From Archaeoglobales archaeon (GTDB lineage: Archaea > Halobacteriota > Archaeoglobi > Archaeoglobales > Archaeoglobaceae): DNA of 33,054 bases. The position numbers were made by a program, and so were the translations under genes. A model generated the notes under the pieces. The model worked only from the letters and a program-made list of their open reading frames with translations. It did not search any database and was not told the DNA's origin. The stretch covers positions 1-33,054 of the forward strand of contig QMZC01000019.1 in the NCBI GenBank assembly GCA_003662995.1, in the 5' to 3' direction. Below, one piece after another: positions 7,375-20,124 of the stretch. Position 1 is the stretch's first letter, and every line of letters begins with the position of its first letter.

Positions 7375-8395
7375 CCCAACTCTCATCATCCTTGTAAACT
7401 TTCTCGTCAATCATCATCTCTCCCTCCACAACAGGTTTTGGTTGCTTAACAGCTTCAATCCTGTATAAAGTCGATCTATACCAGTTATAGTCAATTTTAG
7501 CCCCTATTTTTTTCACAATTGGCAGTTTATCCTGAAATCTGAAGAAGTTTTTATCATCTTGCGGATAAACGTTGAAACGCCTTCTCAAATCTGTAATGAT
7601 GAATCCCATGTCATGAATAATTTTCTGGATCTCATACCACTTCTTTCTTGAAGCTTCAAGTGTTGTAATGCCGAAATAACCTGAACAGCCAACTCCTTTC
7701 AACGTTGAGACTCCTCTCGACAAAAACAGCTTTAAGCCCGGGATGGTCTCGACGGGGTCTGTAACAAAAATGTCAAACTTCCCTTTCAGCTCTTCAGGAA
7801 ATACTTGCTGAACATCGTAAACCATAGCCTCAATCGGAAGCTTGTATTCCTTTGCAATTTCATTAATAAAATCTATCAGCCTATCATCAATATCAACCAC
7901 CACAACCTTCTCCGGAAAGCCCGTTAGCGATGCTGCAATACTCAATAAATCATCATCTCCAACGATGAACATTCTCGAATTTACCAAATCCCCCCTCTCG
8001 TAGATTAACTCGACTCTCTTGATAACTCCATCCAAGCTGATAAACCCCTGATCATACTTCTCTATTGCCTCAGGTCTGTCTTTGGCTATTTCTGAATATT
8101 TCTTGAAGACATCTTTAAAGTAGTCTGAGATTTGGTATCCAGTGCCATCACAAGTGTTGCAAACAAAATTTGAAATTTTTTTCAAATTTAGCGATTTGCA
8201 CTCTTTTAACCCTTTCTCAGTTAAGCTAACCAACCCTTTTTCAACGGAGATAAATCCATCCTTCTCTAAACCTTGCATGAGTTCAAAAAACTCCTTAAGG
8301 CTTGCGTCCTGACTGTCAATAAGCTCGTAAACGCTAATGTCCCCTAAGTACAATTTTTGGAGGATCTGATTTCTAATTCTTCTCATTTCGCTCAT
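7361..8395 (-). CDS. bpsA: N4-bis(aminopropyl)spermidine synthase (branched-chain polyamine synthase)
   Basis: BpsA adds two aminopropyl groups from decarboxylated S-adenosylmethionine to spermidine, giving the branched polyamine N4-bis(aminopropyl)spermidine of thermophiles. The 344-aa protein has an N-terminal winged-helix-like domain (ILQKLYLGDISVYELI, to about residue 70). CNTCDGTG follows at 79-86. The Rossmann-type catalytic domain has the family's GDDDL at 146-150, then VVVVDIDDRLI and DPVETIPGLKLFLSRG. All are characteristic of the former DUF43 family. It lies 35 bp downstream of speD on the same strand, so the substrate-making and substrate-using enzymes are probably co-transcribed. 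GAGGT lies 6-7 bp before the ATG. Confidence 0.92.
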   Translation of the reverse strand: MSEMRRIRNQILQKLYLGDISVYELIDSQDASLKEFFELMQGLEKDGFISVEKGLVSLTEKGLKECKSLNLKKISNFVCNTCDGTGYQISDYFKDVFKKYSEIAKDRPEAIEKYDQGFISLDGVIKRVELIYERGDLVNSRMFIVGDDDLLSIAASLTGFPEKVVVVDIDDRLIDFINEIAKEYKLPIEAMVYDVQQVFPEELKGKFDIFVTDPVETIPGLKLFLSRGVSTLKGVGCSGYFGITTLEASRKKWYEIQKIIHDMGFIITDLRRRFNVYPQDDKNFFRFQDKLPIVKKIGAKIDYNWYRSTLYRIEAVKQPKPVVEGEMMIDEKVYKDDESWATPY

Positions 8396-14596: not shown

Positions 14597-16018
14597 TTAT
14601 TCTTCCTTAGGTTTTGGTGGCCAGTTTTTCTCCAACCAGCCTTTGATTCTTCCAGAATCCACTGGACCAACTAATACATTCCAGCCCGTATCGTCTTCAA
14701 TTGCCCCTGCTAACCTTGCTGCTAAACCTGGAATCACAAGATATTTGTGATTAACTTTATCGGCAATTCCTGTCTCTTCAATTAAATCTTTTACTTTACC
14801 AGAGGTGAAAGCTCCACCTGCTACACTGACTTCTACACCTAAACCTTCTGTATCCAAAACAAGTAACCAGCAGGAAATTCCACCACTTGTAAGATCACTC
14901 TCAACCGTATAATATGTCAAAGCAAAGTTGGTTGTTATAAATACCGGCGAATCCGAGGTAGGATTGTTTATTTCCTTAAGTCCAGCCTCAACTTGAACTG
15001 GAGTTCTTGGATCTGTGTAGATGTTATAGTTCAGTAACACTAAAGGCATTACAGAATACGGCTCTAAGCTCCTGAAGATCATTATGTCTCCATACTTTAC
15101 AATAAACGTTGAACCTATTACAGTCTCCCAGTAAGCTTTTGTAACATCATCAGCATCCATCAGCCAAGCAGCAATGGGTGTTATCATTATTGGATATGCA
15201 ACATCCTTATCTTCAGCCAGAATTGCTGTTCTGCGAAGCTGAATGACTCTTTCATACGTTCCTTGTAATCCTTCTCCAAGCGGTTCAGTAACTGGGTCTA
15301 AAACAATCTCTTCAACTCCTGCCTCTTTAAACGTTTTTGCGATGCTCTTCAACACATTGAGATCTTTTGCCCTTATAGTTACTGGCACCTTGTAATCCAA
15401 AGCAAGCTTTAAGAAGTCCTTCCAGTTCCCTTCAGTTGCGGCATAAATCAATGGTTTGGTATCAGCAACCTCTTCCAAGGCAGCTTTCATACATTCAGCA
15501 TCTAAACAAACCAATATCATCGGCTTTCCATAGCCTGCAACCTTCTTTGCCACTTCTCTGTACCTCTTTGGATCGTTTGATGTACATCTTACAGCAATTC
15601 CATCGAGTGTTAAGAATTGCCCAACATAGAATTTCTTGTATTCAACTACCTTACTACATCTCTCATCCAAATCCTTGTCATCCATTGTGTCCCACACATC
15701 GTAGAAGAAGGCTACTGGATTGAAGAATGTAAGCTCATGCCTGTGCAACACCTCTTCGCCACCAATCTTGACAGCGTTATCACCCGTCCCTATGATCACT
15801 TCTGCAATCTCTGGTGATGTAATTTCAATTAGCTTTTCCAACGTCTCCTTAGCCTTTGGGTTTTTCTCAGCATCTTCAACTAACGGCTTACACTGCAAAA
15901 CTTTGGCAGATCTATCTATGATGTGTGCGGCGAAGCTCATGCATGTGTCGTATCCACACTCACCACAATTTGTTCTTGGCAGATAATTGTAAATTTCGAG
16001 CGGACTTTTTACTTTCAT
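14597..16018 (-). CDS. cdhE: ACDS gamma subunit (large corrinoid iron-sulfur protein subunit)
   Basis: CdhE carries the corrinoid and an N-terminal 4Fe-4S cluster, and passes methyl groups between tetrahydromethanopterin and the acetyl-CoA synthase CdhC. From ATG 16018 (MKVKSPLEIYNYL) it has 473 aa. The cluster motif has C18, C21, C26 and C43 (NCGECGYDTC and later LQC), as in CFeSP/AcsC. The TIM barrel follows (HRHELTFFNPVAFFYDVWD), then a C-terminal corrinoid-binding part with SGGISCWLLVLDTEGLGVEV and FTSGKVKDLIEETG. A longer frame to 16066 would overlap cdhD and lacks support, while GGAGGGGTGA sits just before ATG 16018. It is the last cdh gene and lies directly after cdhD. Confidence 0.96.
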   Translation of the reverse strand: MKVKSPLEIYNYLPRTNCGECGYDTCMSFAAHIIDRSAKVLQCKPLVEDAEKNPKAKETLEKLIEITSPEIAEVIIGTGDNAVKIGGEEVLHRHELTFFNPVAFFYDVWDTMDDKDLDERCSKVVEYKKFYVGQFLTLDGIAVRCTSNDPKRYREVAKKVAGYGKPMILVCLDAECMKAALEEVADTKPLIYAATEGNWKDFLKLALDYKVPVTIRAKDLNVLKSIAKTFKEAGVEEIVLDPVTEPLGEGLQGTYERVIQLRRTAILAEDKDVAYPIMITPIAAWLMDADDVTKAYWETVIGSTFIVKYGDIMIFRSLEPYSVMPLVLLNYNIYTDPRTPVQVEAGLKEINNPTSDSPVFITTNFALTYYTVESDLTSGGISCWLLVLDTEGLGVEVSVAGGAFTSGKVKDLIEETGIADKVNHKYLVIPGLAARLAGAIEDDTGWNVLVGPVDSGRIKGWLEKNWPPKPKEE

Positions 16019-16022
16019 TTTC

Positions 16023-17378
16023 TCACCCCTCCATGAAGATCCATTCTCCAGGATCTGCCACTCCACCTTTTATTCTACCGCCGAGCGTGTTTGAGATTTC
16101 TTTAAGTGTAGCACAAGCTCCGGGATGCATCATCATGAACAAGTCCACGCCTGCTAAAGCCAAGGTTAAACCTGTAACAATTTCCCAAATCGGACCTCTC
16201 AACTCTCTTGGACCCCAGTCTGAATCACCTTCAATTGGCGACTCTGTCATCCAAGCTTCTCTTGCACCCCACGCATTTGTTGTACCACTTGAAATTGGGA
16301 ATGCCAAATCTGCATCACCTTTCAAACCAGCAATTCTAGCTCTCTCCATTGTCGTGTATGCGTAATCCAAACCGTAACCCAATGCAGCAGTTGTTGTGTC
16401 TTGAATTATGTTCTCCCTTGGCACCTCAGCCCTCTTTAACAGATACTTGTTCAAAGTCTTCTGGTTGTTTATGTCCATCTGCGTCCAAGAAAGTACAACA
16501 TGGTCGTACTTTTTAGCTGCTTCTGCTATCATCTCCCACTCATCCAGTGTAGCTGATGCAAGCATTATCCTTTCCCCTTCACAAACTTCTGCAGCCTTAG
16601 CAAGTACTTTTGGATCTTTTTCTTTATTACCGCTCCCACCAACTATTATTGGGCATTTTACAGCCTGTAAAACATCCTCCAAAACCTTTACAGCCTCATT
16701 GACAGGCGTGTCTTTTAGTAGTGGATCTGTACTAATTAAGTGTACAGTCACCAAATCAGCACCGAACTTATCAACAGCTTTCTTAGCCCATTCTGCTGGA
16801 TCATCCATAACGTCATCGTAGTGCATTCTCACTGCCTTAGCCAATCCAATCCTCATATCAAAAACGTCAACAGCTATTACTGGCAGATATTCCTGCTTTG
16901 CATCGAATATATAGAATGGCAGACTTTTTTCACCTCCAACTGTAACAGTGTATCCTCTTGTCCCACCTTCACTTTTTGTGGCTCCCAACGTAACCTCCTC
17001 AATTGTTCCAGGATACTCCATCTTGTACGGCTCAAACTTAGCCTCAACAAGTTTCTCAGGTATCTTAACCTCTGGAATCGGAGGCGCTACTTCAGGAACT
17101 GCTGGAGCTGGAGGCATAGCAGGCATAGCAAATGGCGTAGGAATTCCGAGCATTGCAGATAGTCTTTGCAAATAGCTCAGAGCCATATTAGAATGGTACA
17201 AAAAGTTTCCAAATTCGCTTAAAAGTGTATAGGCTGCTGTTAATGCTGTTAGATCGATTCCTGCTCCCTCTTCAAATTCAATTTCCAAATCTCCTTCAAT
17301 TTCAACGCCTTCCAATTCCTCTACATTGTACTTTTTGAGTAACTCTAAAAACTCCTCAAGGGTAAACTTTTTTGCCAT
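16023..17378 (-). CDS. cdhD: ACDS delta subunit (small corrinoid iron-sulfur protein subunit)
   Basis: CdhD pairs with CdhE to form the corrinoid iron-sulfur protein of the ACDS complex. The 451-aa protein has three parts: an N-terminal module at about 1-80 (LEGVEIEGDLEIEFEEG, then FGNFLYHSNMALSYLQRL), a Pro/Ala-rich flexible linker at about 80-105 (PAMPPAPAVPEVAPPIPEV), and a TIM barrel for the rest. The barrel carries typical CdhD blocks (GGTRGYTVTVGGE, IVGGSGNKEKDPKVL, PISSGTTNAWGAREAWM, MMHPGACATLKEI). Its stop is 4 bp before the cdhE ATG. Its N-terminal module is repeated as the separate small protein encoded just upstream (17402-17644). Confidence is very high. Confidence 0.96.
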   Translation of the reverse strand: MAKKFTLEEFLELLKKYNVEELEGVEIEGDLEIEFEEGAGIDLTALTAAYTLLSEFGNFLYHSNMALSYLQRLSAMLGIPTPFAMPAMPPAPAVPEVAPPIPEVKIPEKLVEAKFEPYKMEYPGTIEEVTLGATKSEGGTRGYTVTVGGEKSLPFYIFDAKQEYLPVIAVDVFDMRIGLAKAVRMHYDDVMDDPAEWAKKAVDKFGADLVTVHLISTDPLLKDTPVNEAVKVLEDVLQAVKCPIIVGGSGNKEKDPKVLAKAAEVCEGERIMLASATLDEWEMIAEAAKKYDHVVLSWTQMDINNQKTLNKYLLKRAEVPRENIIQDTTTAALGYGLDYAYTTMERARIAGLKGDADLAFPISSGTTNAWGAREAWMTESPIEGDSDWGPRELRGPIWEIVTGLTLALAGVDLFMMMHPGACATLKEISNTLGGRIKGGVADPGEWIFMEG

Positions 17379-17401: not shown

Positions 17402-17644
17402 TTAACCCTCACTTTCATTAACATTATTAACGTTTATAACGTCCATAAAACCCAACCTATTTATAAACGACATTGCCATGTTTGCGTGATATAAAAAGTT
17501 TTGTAGCTCTTGAAGCACAGGCAAAGGTAAGATTGCTGGAATGTCCTCATTTATTTCAATTTCTAAGTCACCCTCTATCACGACATTCTCAAGTTTTTCT
17601 ACATCATGTCCTTCAATAAACTTTAAGAAAGATTCCAGGTCCAT
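17402..17644 (-). CDS. Free-standing copy of the CdhD N-terminal module (80 aa)
   Basis: The 80-aa product from ATG 17644 is plainly homologous to residues 4-77 of CdhD, encoded next. Both share IEGDLEIE (residues 23-30 here, 27-34 in CdhD) and NFLYH-x-NMA-x-S-xxx-RL (from residue 49 here, 58 in CdhD). Both also have the same N-terminal helix (LESFLKFIEGHDVEKLENV versus LEEFLELLKKYNVEELEGV). The Pro-rich linker and TIM barrel are absent; it ends in a short Asn-rich tail. A TTG at 17647 is a less likely start, since AGGTG lies 5 bp before the ATG. It sits between cooC and cdhD inside the ACDS operon. I know no assigned function; a role in complex assembly or competition for the CdhD docking site is inference. 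Confidence 0.85.
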   Translation of the reverse strand: MDLESFLKFIEGHDVEKLENVVIEGDLEIEINEDIPAILPLPVLQELQNFLYHANMAMSFINRLGFMDVINVNNVNESEG

Positions 17645-17659
17645 CAAAACACCTACATC

Positions 17660-18436
17660 CTAATTTATCTTGATACTTGCTCCAACAACCAATTCAGCAA
17701 TCTCTTTAACTTTTCTGGCAAATTCAGAGTTTTCAGGCAAATATGTTATAGGTAATCCTTTCATGTCCAATTCTGCAATTTTTTCATCATACGGTAGAAA
17801 TCCTATGAGTGGAATGCCCTCCTCATCTGCAAATTTTTTAATTATTTCTTCAGCCTCCTTTGACATTATTCTGTTTCCAATTAAATAGATTCCTTTGAAA
17901 TCCAATTTTAGCTCTTTCGACATTTTCTTAATTCTTTTTGCCGTAGCCAATCCTTTTTTAGACATATCCGTAATGACGAAGATGTAGTCTGCAGTATCTA
18001 TCGTTTTTCTGCTGAAGTGTTCCAAGCCTGCTTCACTGTCGATGATTATGTAATCGTAGTGTCTCATAAGCTTTCTTAAAACCCCCCTTAGTAAAGAATT
18101 TGCAAAGCAGTAGCAACCTTCACCTTCAGGCCTTCCCATAACTAGCAAATCGTAAGAGTCGCATTCACAAATTGCCTCGGTGTAAATTTTCCCTTCCAAC
18201 CACTGTTCTTTGTTCATAGCCCCCATATCATCTCTGCTAACTTGAAAAACTTCCCTAATATCTCCTAAAGTCTTTTTGACTTCGTTAGCTACCCCCAAAG
18301 CATCTGGCAGATTAGAGTCTGGGTCTGCATCCACTGCCAAAACTCTCGTCGTTACCTTGGAAATAAAATGAATAAGGAGGGCTGAAACTACTGTTTTGCC
18401 CGTCCCTCCTTTGCCTGTTACTGCTACAACTACCAA
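17660..18436 (-). CDS. cooC: CooC-type CO dehydrogenase maturation ATPase (nickel insertion)
   Basis: CooC is a dimeric MinD/SIMIBI-class ATPase that helps insert nickel into the C-cluster of CO dehydrogenase. The 258-aa product has the deviant Walker A GKGGTGKT at 8-15, DADPDSNLPDALG at 36-48 and the CxC metal site at C108-C110 (EGEGCYCFANSLLRG). YIIIDSEAGLEHFSRKT is the Walker B/switch region, followed by the usual IGNRI. The frame begins with TTG 18436, directly after the TAG of the 28-codon ORF, and the GAGGAGGAGG ribosome-binding site is coded by that ORF's last codons. No ATG near the start fits. The position between cdhC and cdhD matches archaeal cdh operons. Confidence 0.93.
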   Translation of the reverse strand: MVVVAVTGKGGTGKTVVSALLIHFISKVTTRVLAVDADPDSNLPDALGVANEVKKTLGDIREVFQVSRDDMGAMNKEQWLEGKIYTEAICECDSYDLLVMGRPEGEGCYCFANSLLRGVLRKLMRHYDYIIIDSEAGLEHFSRKTIDTADYIFVITDMSKKGLATAKRIKKMSKELKLDFKGIYLIGNRIMSKEAEEIIKKFADEEGIPLIGFLPYDEKIAELDMKGLPITYLPENSEFARKVKEIAELVVGASIKIN

Positions 18437-18523
18437 CTATTCCTCCTCCTCGATTATTAACTCTGGAACGTGTATTGTTGCTCCTTTCAATATGATTTTC
18501 GCAGTTTTCTTTTTCTCCTCCAT
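18437..18523 (-). CDS. 28-codon ORF resembling the CdhC C-terminal tail
   Basis: ATG 18523 starts 4 bp after the cdhC stop and the frame ends with TAG directly before the cooC TTG, so it exactly fills the cdhC-cooC gap. The product reads MEEKKKTAKIILKGAT, then IHVPELIIEEEE. Residues 9-24 (KIILKGATIHVPELII) align with CdhC residues 501-516 (KLVIKDAKIKIDKVII): 6 of 16 are identical and nearly all other positions are conservative hydrophobics. The CdhC tail ends in lysines while this one ends in glutamates. The Glu codons also form the ribosome-binding site of cooC, so part of the sequence has another reason to exist. A real small protein is plausible but unproven. Confidence 0.45.
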   Translation of the reverse strand: MEEKKKTAKIILKGATIHVPELIIEEEE

Positions 18524-18527
18524 CCTA

Positions 18528-20096
18528 TCACTTCTTTTTCTTTTCCTCAGCCTTCCTTATTATTACCTTGTCAATCTTTATCTTTGCATCCTTGATTACC
18601 AGCTTAACTCCGCCTGCTGGAGCTGCAGTTGGGGTTGGCATCTGGAATTGGGGCATCGGCATCTGCATAGGCATTTGCATCGGCTGCATTGGCTGCATTG
18701 GCATTGCTGTTGGTTGAGCTGGAGTAGCCTCTGCTGGAGCTTCAGCTACTTCTGCAACCTCTTCGACAACCTCTTCCTCAACCCATCCGTCGGTTATCTT
18801 CTGCCCATCAACCTCTCTAACGACTCCTGTTACGACGGGATGATCAACTTTCTTCAAGAACTCTTTTAGCTCATCCAACGTTTTTGCATCCTCTTCAGTT
18901 GCTATTTTATCCCTCATTTCCTCTGGTATGTAATCCTTAATTCTCTCCTTAAGCTCCTTAGCCATCCATACTACCCTTCTCCAACCACCGTCAGCCTGTA
19001 AGAACTTCTTGCTTCTGAAGTATGCTACACCAACACCCAAGAAACCGAGTATCTGCTTTCCACCACCTGTCTGTCCAGCCATTGTTGAGAACGGCAAACC
19101 ATTTGGCGCAACATCAGGATAGCCTCTGTGCACGAATCCTATACCGTCAACTTCGGGCATGTAAAAGCCTATGGTTTCGAAACAACCGCAGCTTGTGTGT
19201 GGGGCATCGAAGAATGAGTGCAAGCAAATTCTTGTATATTCTCCACCACTCTCCTCGGCAGCATACTTGTTAACTCCAGAATACTCACCCTTTATCGGAT
19301 CGATGCACTCTCCTTTTGGTACAGGTCTGTTGGGACCTTCAGGATCGACCCTTGCTGCTGCTCTACCATCAAACCAAGTTATTGCACCGCAGAGTGCAGG
19401 TCTGTCTGGACTAACAATGCACACGTTCGTTGGAGCAAACGACTGGCAGAGATGGCAGGAATAGAATTCATCAACCTCCTCATCGCTTATAGCCTCAACT
19501 CTAGCATCTCTTGCATTGTAAATAGGCCATGCAAGTTCGTCAAGAACCTTTTTATTGAATTCCTCATCTGTTGAGTAGATGGCTTCAATCTTCTCAATAA
19601 ATGGTAACTCGTTCTTAAACAACATCATTGTAGCTTTTGCAATTTCAGCTAAACTCTTTAGCCCCTTCTTTACAGCGCTTTTTGCAATTCTGCACCATAT
19701 GTCATGCCTTTGCTGCAGATGCATGTAGCCTTCGATGTAATTCTGGAAGTCGTGGTTTCTTCTTTCAATGACTGGTTCCAAGTCTTCCTCAATCATCTCT
19801 CCTGCAACATAGTATATCATTGCAAGACCATACGCCCCTTCTTCTTCCATTTCATCCAAGTCTTTTCCTACAATTGTTACTTTCATGTCTTCCACTTGAT
19901 CTGGTGGCAAAGCTATAACAAGCTCAAAACCCGGTTTGCCTAGGGGTTGTCCACCAAGCTCTACAAAGTATTCTCCTTTTCTAATTCTCTCTCCTTCATA
20001 CATTGGGCTAATATCAAATGGGTACTCCTCCATCTCTCCCGGAACTTCCTTCACCTTCACTCCTTCTGGGATTTCAATTCTTTTTCTTTCTACCAA
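18528..20096 (-). CDS. cdhC: ACDS beta subunit (acetyl-CoA synthase)
   Basis: CdhC joins a methyl group, CO and CoA at the Ni-Ni-4Fe4S A-cluster, or runs the reverse cleavage. Counting from GTG 20105, cysteines lie at 217, 220, 229 and 239 (YSCHLCQSFAPTNVCIV, then PALCGAITWFDG). The C306-G307-C308 motif is in APHTSCGCFETIG. The spacings 3, 9, 10 and 67 equal those of the Moorella A-cluster (506, 509, 518, 528, 595/597). A Met/Pro/Gln-rich linker (about 465-495) leads to a short C-terminal module (KLVIKDAKIKIDKVIIRK). The start is uncertain: AGGAGGTG overlaps GTG 20105, so TTG 20096 (six bases after it) is preferred; no ATG is nearby. It follows cdhB by about 20 bp. Confidence 0.96.
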   Translation of the reverse strand: MVERKRIEIPEGVKVKEVPGEMEEYPFDISPMYEGERIRKGEYFVELGGQPLGKPGFELVIALPPDQVEDMKVTIVGKDLDEMEEEGAYGLAMIYYVAGEMIEEDLEPVIERRNHDFQNYIEGYMHLQQRHDIWCRIAKSAVKKGLKSLAEIAKATMMLFKNELPFIEKIEAIYSTDEEFNKKVLDELAWPIYNARDARVEAISDEEVDEFYSCHLCQSFAPTNVCIVSPDRPALCGAITWFDGRAAARVDPEGPNRPVPKGECIDPIKGEYSGVNKYAAEESGGEYTRICLHSFFDAPHTSCGCFETIGFYMPEVDGIGFVHRGYPDVAPNGLPFSTMAGQTGGGKQILGFLGVGVAYFRSKKFLQADGGWRRVVWMAKELKERIKDYIPEEMRDKIATEEDAKTLDELKEFLKKVDHPVVTGVVREVDGQKITDGWVEEEVVEEVAEVAEAPAEATPAQPTAMPMQPMQPMQMPMQMPMPQFQMPTPTAAPAGGVKLVIKDAKIKIDKVIIRKAEEKKKK

Positions 20097-20124
20097 ATTC
20101 AACACCTCCTAAATCAAATAAAAA

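Follow-up and report, generated by a model that had tools for sequence, protein, structure and literature searches.

The small ORF in the ACDS operon

In the 2.2-MDa archaeal ACDS complex, which makes and breaks acetyl-CoA, acetyl-CoA synthase has to be attached both to CO dehydrogenase and to the corrinoid protein and yet has to move from one to the other. The locus described here bears on how this is achieved. Between the cooC and cdhD genes of its ACDS operon lies an 80-aa ORF that resembles the beginning of CdhD, and it may be asked what this ORF is, where it came from and what it could bind. In the window (the whole stretch of 33,054 nucleotides that was analysed; contig C19 of genome G000, which its relatives place in the Archaeoglobaceae), the operon is located on the minus strand in the order cdhA (23048-20643), cdhB (20643-20125), cdhC (18528-20105), cooC (17660-18436), small ORF (17402-17644, stop included), cdhD (17378-16023) and cdhE (14597-16066). 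Among them, cdhC encodes the ACDS beta subunit, acetyl-CoA synthase (PF19436, PF03598; TIGR00316), cooC encodes a CbiA/ParA-type P-loop ATPase directly upstream of the small ORF, and cdhE encodes the gamma subunit (PF03599 and PF04060). CdhD consists of three parts: the N-terminal module of residues 1-78 (17145-17378; helix, IEGDLEIE strand, helix), a Pro/Ala-rich linker IPTPFAMPAMPPAPAVPEVAPPIPEVKIPEKL (17046-17144) and the barrel domain of the delta subunit (16023-17045; PF03599, E=1e-77). The Pfam CdhD match does not take in the module, and solved CdhD chains align to the barrel only.

The small ORF starts with ATG at 17644, runs for 80 codons and ends with TAA at 17402-17404. Its ATG follows the cooC stop (17660) after 15 nt, with AGGTG 5 nt upstream, and 23 nt separate its end from the cdhD ATG (17378); an alternative TTG start is possible one codon upstream but is not needed. 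In a search of the whole genome, the only match to its product besides itself was CdhD, at about residues 7-76, with 52% identity over 65 aa (query 3-67, E=6e-13). The local alignment score was 151, compared with a mean of 27.4 (sd 5.0, maximum 55) in 2000 shuffles, and the NCBIfam model of the CdhD subfamily, NF003375, matches the ORF at profile positions 6-72 (E=2e-5). The small ORF has diverged from residues ~1-78 of CdhD, of which it is a copy. The initial annotation had likewise taken it for a free-standing version of a module that is tethered in CdhD, as in a docking domain, and had noted that it lacks the linker and barrel, both of which are real in CdhD. The same annotation gave the IEGDLEIE and NFLYH motifs one order and spacing in the two proteins; the order stands, while the gap is 18 residues in the small ORF and 23 in CdhD, the loop being 5 residues shorter.

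The copy retains the make-up of the module, namely the N-terminal helix, the acidic E-x-V-x-IEGDLEIE segment and the long second helix. It has a net charge of -13, and its 80 residues include two His and no Cys. No Pfam family was found in it and a PDB sequence search returned no relative. The protein would act like a docking module; it is not a delta subunit, the PF03599 barrel having been tested for and found absent.

Conservation and selection in the Archaeoglobaceae

An ortholog of the small ORF, again between cooC and cdhD, is present in the sister species Archaeoglobaceae archaeon AUK153 (G001, L032). The genus has no further species besides these two, and none of the other genomes among 60 relatives has an ortholog; a profile search of 55 family members likewise limited the small ORF to this genus. 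In the other Archaeoglobaceae that were read, cooC abuts or overlaps cdhD, and no free module lies between them.

The two orthologs are 54% identical, whereas cooC and CdhD of the same two species are 90-93% identical. The pair gives pN/pS 0.33 (bootstrap 0.21-0.48) at saturated synonymous sites, while the CdhD module stands at 0.06, and cooC and the CdhD barrel at 0.08-0.09; that is to say, the small ORF is under purifying selection, which is looser than that on the enzyme subunits. IEGDLEIE is unchanged between the two species, and the last 18 codons diverge most. Because an ortholog occupies the same position in the sister species and is under purifying selection, the small ORF is not a decaying fragment; a pseudogene, for which the initial annotation had named lack of the ORF in related genomes or a ratio near 1 as the sign, is contradicted by the ortholog, by the pN/pS value and by the open frame in both species.

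Free modules across the phylum

A profile built from 19 modules was run over 80 and then 76 further genomes of the phylum, and a free-standing CdhD N-module was defined as a module in an open frame of less than about 110 aa without the barrel, a group to which the 80-aa small ORF belongs. The module begins nearly every archaeal-type CdhD, and it also occurs in short open frames: besides the Archaeoglobaceae, nine families of the phylum have free copies, two of them in the form of mini-copies alone, and the notion of a duplication restricted to one genus was dropped after this search. The free module is present in the ACDS operon as first noted, but to tie it to this operon would be too narrow. 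Located between cooC and cdhD or just before cdhD are copies of 75 aa in Methanolliviera (L058, L060), 82 aa in G054, 74 aa in G061, 78 aa in G304, 108 aa in G388, and 104 aa in G215 and G197; G139, G164 and G044 have mini-copies of 32-39 aa that consist of helix and strand only. Unlinked copies occur in four genomes each of family f21 (G306, G284, G327, G378) and family f5 (G383, G242, G141, G330), which we take to be the Methanothrix and the Methanosarcina family, respectively; the copy in G383 is located at C1:480095-480292. Adjacency to cooC, which the initial annotation had proposed to test, holds in several lineages and fails in others, several free modules not being near cooC. CbiQ-type genes are found some kilobases away from the unlinked module at two f5 loci (L159, L162), where a DsrE-family gene is also close by, and the DsrE-family neighbour recurs in L160.

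All free copies retain the core strand. In a tree of 50 modules, whose few columns leave fine branching unsure, each free copy groups with CdhD from the lineage to which it belongs, which points to repeated origin: branches with support of at least 95 force at least 8 changes between the free and the attached state. The Archaeoglobaceae CdhD group takes in the window pair (support 97), with the branching order within the group not settled. The simpler reading is that free modules arose several times by tandem duplication, and concerted evolution of one old gene could also give this pattern. Some copies are very young: that of G304 is 91% and that of G215 is 88% identical to the CdhD of the same genome, and in G215 the duplicated unit visibly takes in the 5′ leader; others are patchy within a genus, being present in G061 and absent in G110. 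The pN/pS values are 0.21-0.32 for the f21 copies, which are kept across three genera, 0.16 for G215/G197 and 0.32 for Methanolliviera, and the f5 pairs, at 0.4-1.3, are weakly constrained. The repeated rise of loose modules suggests a role in controlling ACDS assembly.

The CdhC tail as the likely partner

CdhC ends in a basic segment, GGVKLVIKDAKIKIDKVIIRKAEEKKKK (18531-18614, charge +6.8 against -13 for the small ORF), behind a long flexible linker rich in Pro, Met and Gln (approximately 18615-18788). Archaeal-type loci numbered 49 as listed and 48 as distinct loci, L060 and L154 being one contig. The tail is present in all 48, fused to CdhC in 43 and encoded as a separate small gene in 5; the CdhD module is detectable in 45 of these tail-bearing loci, and in the other three (L090, L100, L101), where the HMM did not detect it, degenerate versions are visible by eye. 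In bacterial-type operons of the same phylum, both tail and module are absent in 18 of 18, a count that overstates independence, since these operons may stem from few transfers; the bacterial-type operon may have been passed on as a unit, so that few evolutionary events stand behind the co-occurrence.

Structure prediction with AlphaFold2 is consistent with contact. The small ORF alone was modelled with helices at 3-12 and 41-78 and no strand, the motif being coil (pLDDT 67). In a read-through chain from Ferroglobus (CdhC tail, CooC and CdhD module), the tail was predicted to form strands at 21-31 and 34-37 and the module at 358-362 and 365-374, with strand pLDDT of about 71-83 overall (tail ~80, module ~71-79). 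This model is a single chain through stop codons, with a model of low quality for CooC and with a few residues at the end of the tail misplaced in the alignment; the two folds compare different modules (the small ORF and the Ferroglobus CdhD) and so form an imperfect control, and the strands of tail and module could each be self-paired hairpins. Even so, the module strand was modelled only when the tail was included, which supports pairing with the tail without demonstrating it. Taken with the co-occurrence and the opposite charges, this makes the basic CdhC tail the likely partner of the module, and the docking role proposed in the initial annotation has gained support.

The tail, too, occurs in loose form. 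Between cdhC and cooC lies a 28-aa ORF, MEEKKKTAKIILKGATIHVPELIIEEEE (18437-18523, minus strand), which was absent from the listed ORFs and which reads as a loose copy of the tail strand (tail HMM E=1e-3). Most of the Archaeoglobaceae genera that were read carry it, and its start and frame are conserved; genus g4 does not have it. Because its final GAGGAGGAGGAA doubles as the cooC ribosome site, part of this conservation may be regulatory. Separate tail genes of about 58-94 aa occur in Methanolliviera, G044, G045, G054 and genomes of family f21. A tail split off in this way was noted at L107 about 7794-8252 (minus), L060 1031-1255 (plus) and L144 5931-6131 (minus), where the small gene encodes an N-terminal basic stretch (KLTLKKKE-like) and CdhC itself ends in an extra, probably helical segment.

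Possible functions

The role of a loose module can be approached from that proposed for the attached one. The CdhD module, on its flexible linker, would grip the CdhC tail, likewise on a flexible linker, by beta-strand pairing, and would in this way hold CdhDE, the corrinoid protein, on acetyl-CoA synthase. Having the acidic strand and helices but no enzyme domain, a loose module would therefore replace CdhD on CdhC tails and occupy them in its place, whether it caps them for a time while the complex is assembled or sets the number of CdhDE per complex. Tentatively, the product of the small ORF may well be such a soluble protein, which would compete for or cap the site where CdhC and CdhD dock. 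Homology, position, purifying selection, repeated origin and the co-occurrence of module and tail are observed, and contact, competition and benefit are inferred. That most Archaeoglobaceae do without a free copy and that the f5 pairs are weakly constrained count against it. In a wider and more doubtful form, archaeal ACDS might be held by a two-piece detachable clasp of CdhD module and CdhC tail, both halves of which would have been freed repeatedly as small competing genes that regulate attachment between the corrinoid protein and acetyl-CoA synthase.

Recurrent neutral duplication is the main rival. On this account, which we consider unlikely but the weightiest of the alternatives, the 5′ end of cdhD with its leader is often duplicated in tandem, and the short ORFs are mostly tolerated and then decay without a dedicated function. 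The very young copies in G304 and G215, the duplicated leader in the latter, the patchiness between G061 and G110 and the Methanosarcina-family pairs that reach pN/pS of about 1 speak for it; the upper limit of 0.48 for the window pair at saturated synonymous sites, the retention of the Methanothrix-family copies over three genera at 0.21-0.32 and the core strand retained in every copy run against it. Slightly less probable still is that the module serves another partner, such as the CdhD module itself (homotypic), CdhA, CdhE, CooC or the 28-aa peptide, for example as a scaffold in nickel or corrinoid loading. The position between cooC and cdhD in several lineages would fit, as would the CbiQ-type cobalt transport genes some kilobases from unlinked Methanosarcina-family copies in two genomes and one Methanothrix-family copy that adjoins Peripla_BP_2 binding proteins, a class including corrinoid binders. 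This transporter neighbourhood is loose, however, and is not common to all copies, operons with CooC mostly have no free module, and by its residues the small ORF offers no metal site.

The same observations bear on the CooC-dependent nickel loading invoked in the initial annotation, which is not supported here: many cooC operons lack a free module and several free modules are not near cooC. A CooC-linked nickel chaperone was rejected on this distribution and on the residues. It is also improbable that the small ORF encodes an extra permanent structural subunit of this lineage's complex, filling tail sites left empty by CdhD. Its place in the same operon, the selection on it and the retention of both helices and the strand speak for this, but the product evolves faster than the operon neighbours compared (54% against 90-93%), which is unusual for a core subunit. 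Returning to the competitor or cap, if it is true, small-protein control would be added to the reaction behind most biological methane from acetate.

Comparison with known systems

The nearest relative is the N-terminal region of CdhD in NF003375, whose first 72 positions align with the small ORF in the same helix-strand-helix arrangement; the small ORF differs from this protein in having neither the linker nor the PF03599 barrel. The CdhC C-terminal extension provides a matching flexible end on the other subunit and, like the module, is also found free, as a separate small gene and as the 28-aa ORF, but it is basic where the module is acidic, and no sequence homology between them is claimed. 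In Methanosarcina thermophila, this extension of ACS (~75 aa, residues 398-472) was not resolved in the structure and has no known function, and the cryo-EM study lacked a view of the interaction between ACS and CFeSP (PMC11474084). The present pattern points to a partner of that extension which can be tested, and it offers putative natural competitor proteins, which apparently exist in cultivated Methanosarcina and Methanothrix as well, if the families are correctly named.

MtrR and MtrI of Methanosarcina mazei are likewise small proteins on a central C1-metabolism complex, and MtrR has been reported to tune the activity of its target complex; in the parts of these sources that were available, they are not described as docking-module copies of their target (PMC13370731, PMC12774963). 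The nickel accessory proteins CooJ and CooT share with the small ORF a small gene near cooC, but the latter has no metal-binding residues to speak of, lacks a His/Cys-rich site and shows clear CdhD homology. In a literature search, with subscription journals mostly outside its reach, no description was found of the free module as such or of a contact between tail and module.

Other ACDS-related genes

Further ACDS-related frames were noticed during the survey. A second ACS-like protein (PF19436, frame of about 355 aa) lies away from the operon at G000:C60:877-1437 (L069), and such proteins also occur in G011, G004 and G024. G000:C68:6522-6860 and G001:C90:4513-4890 encode a short CdhE-like protein (frame of ~214 aa) whose match to PF03599 covers the C-terminal portion of that family; among the 7 genomes compared it is present only in this genus. 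In L071 (5250-9380, minus strand), CO dehydrogenase and acetyl-CoA synthase are fused in one chain of 1377 aa, and the same fusion is seen in G058 and f4 relatives.
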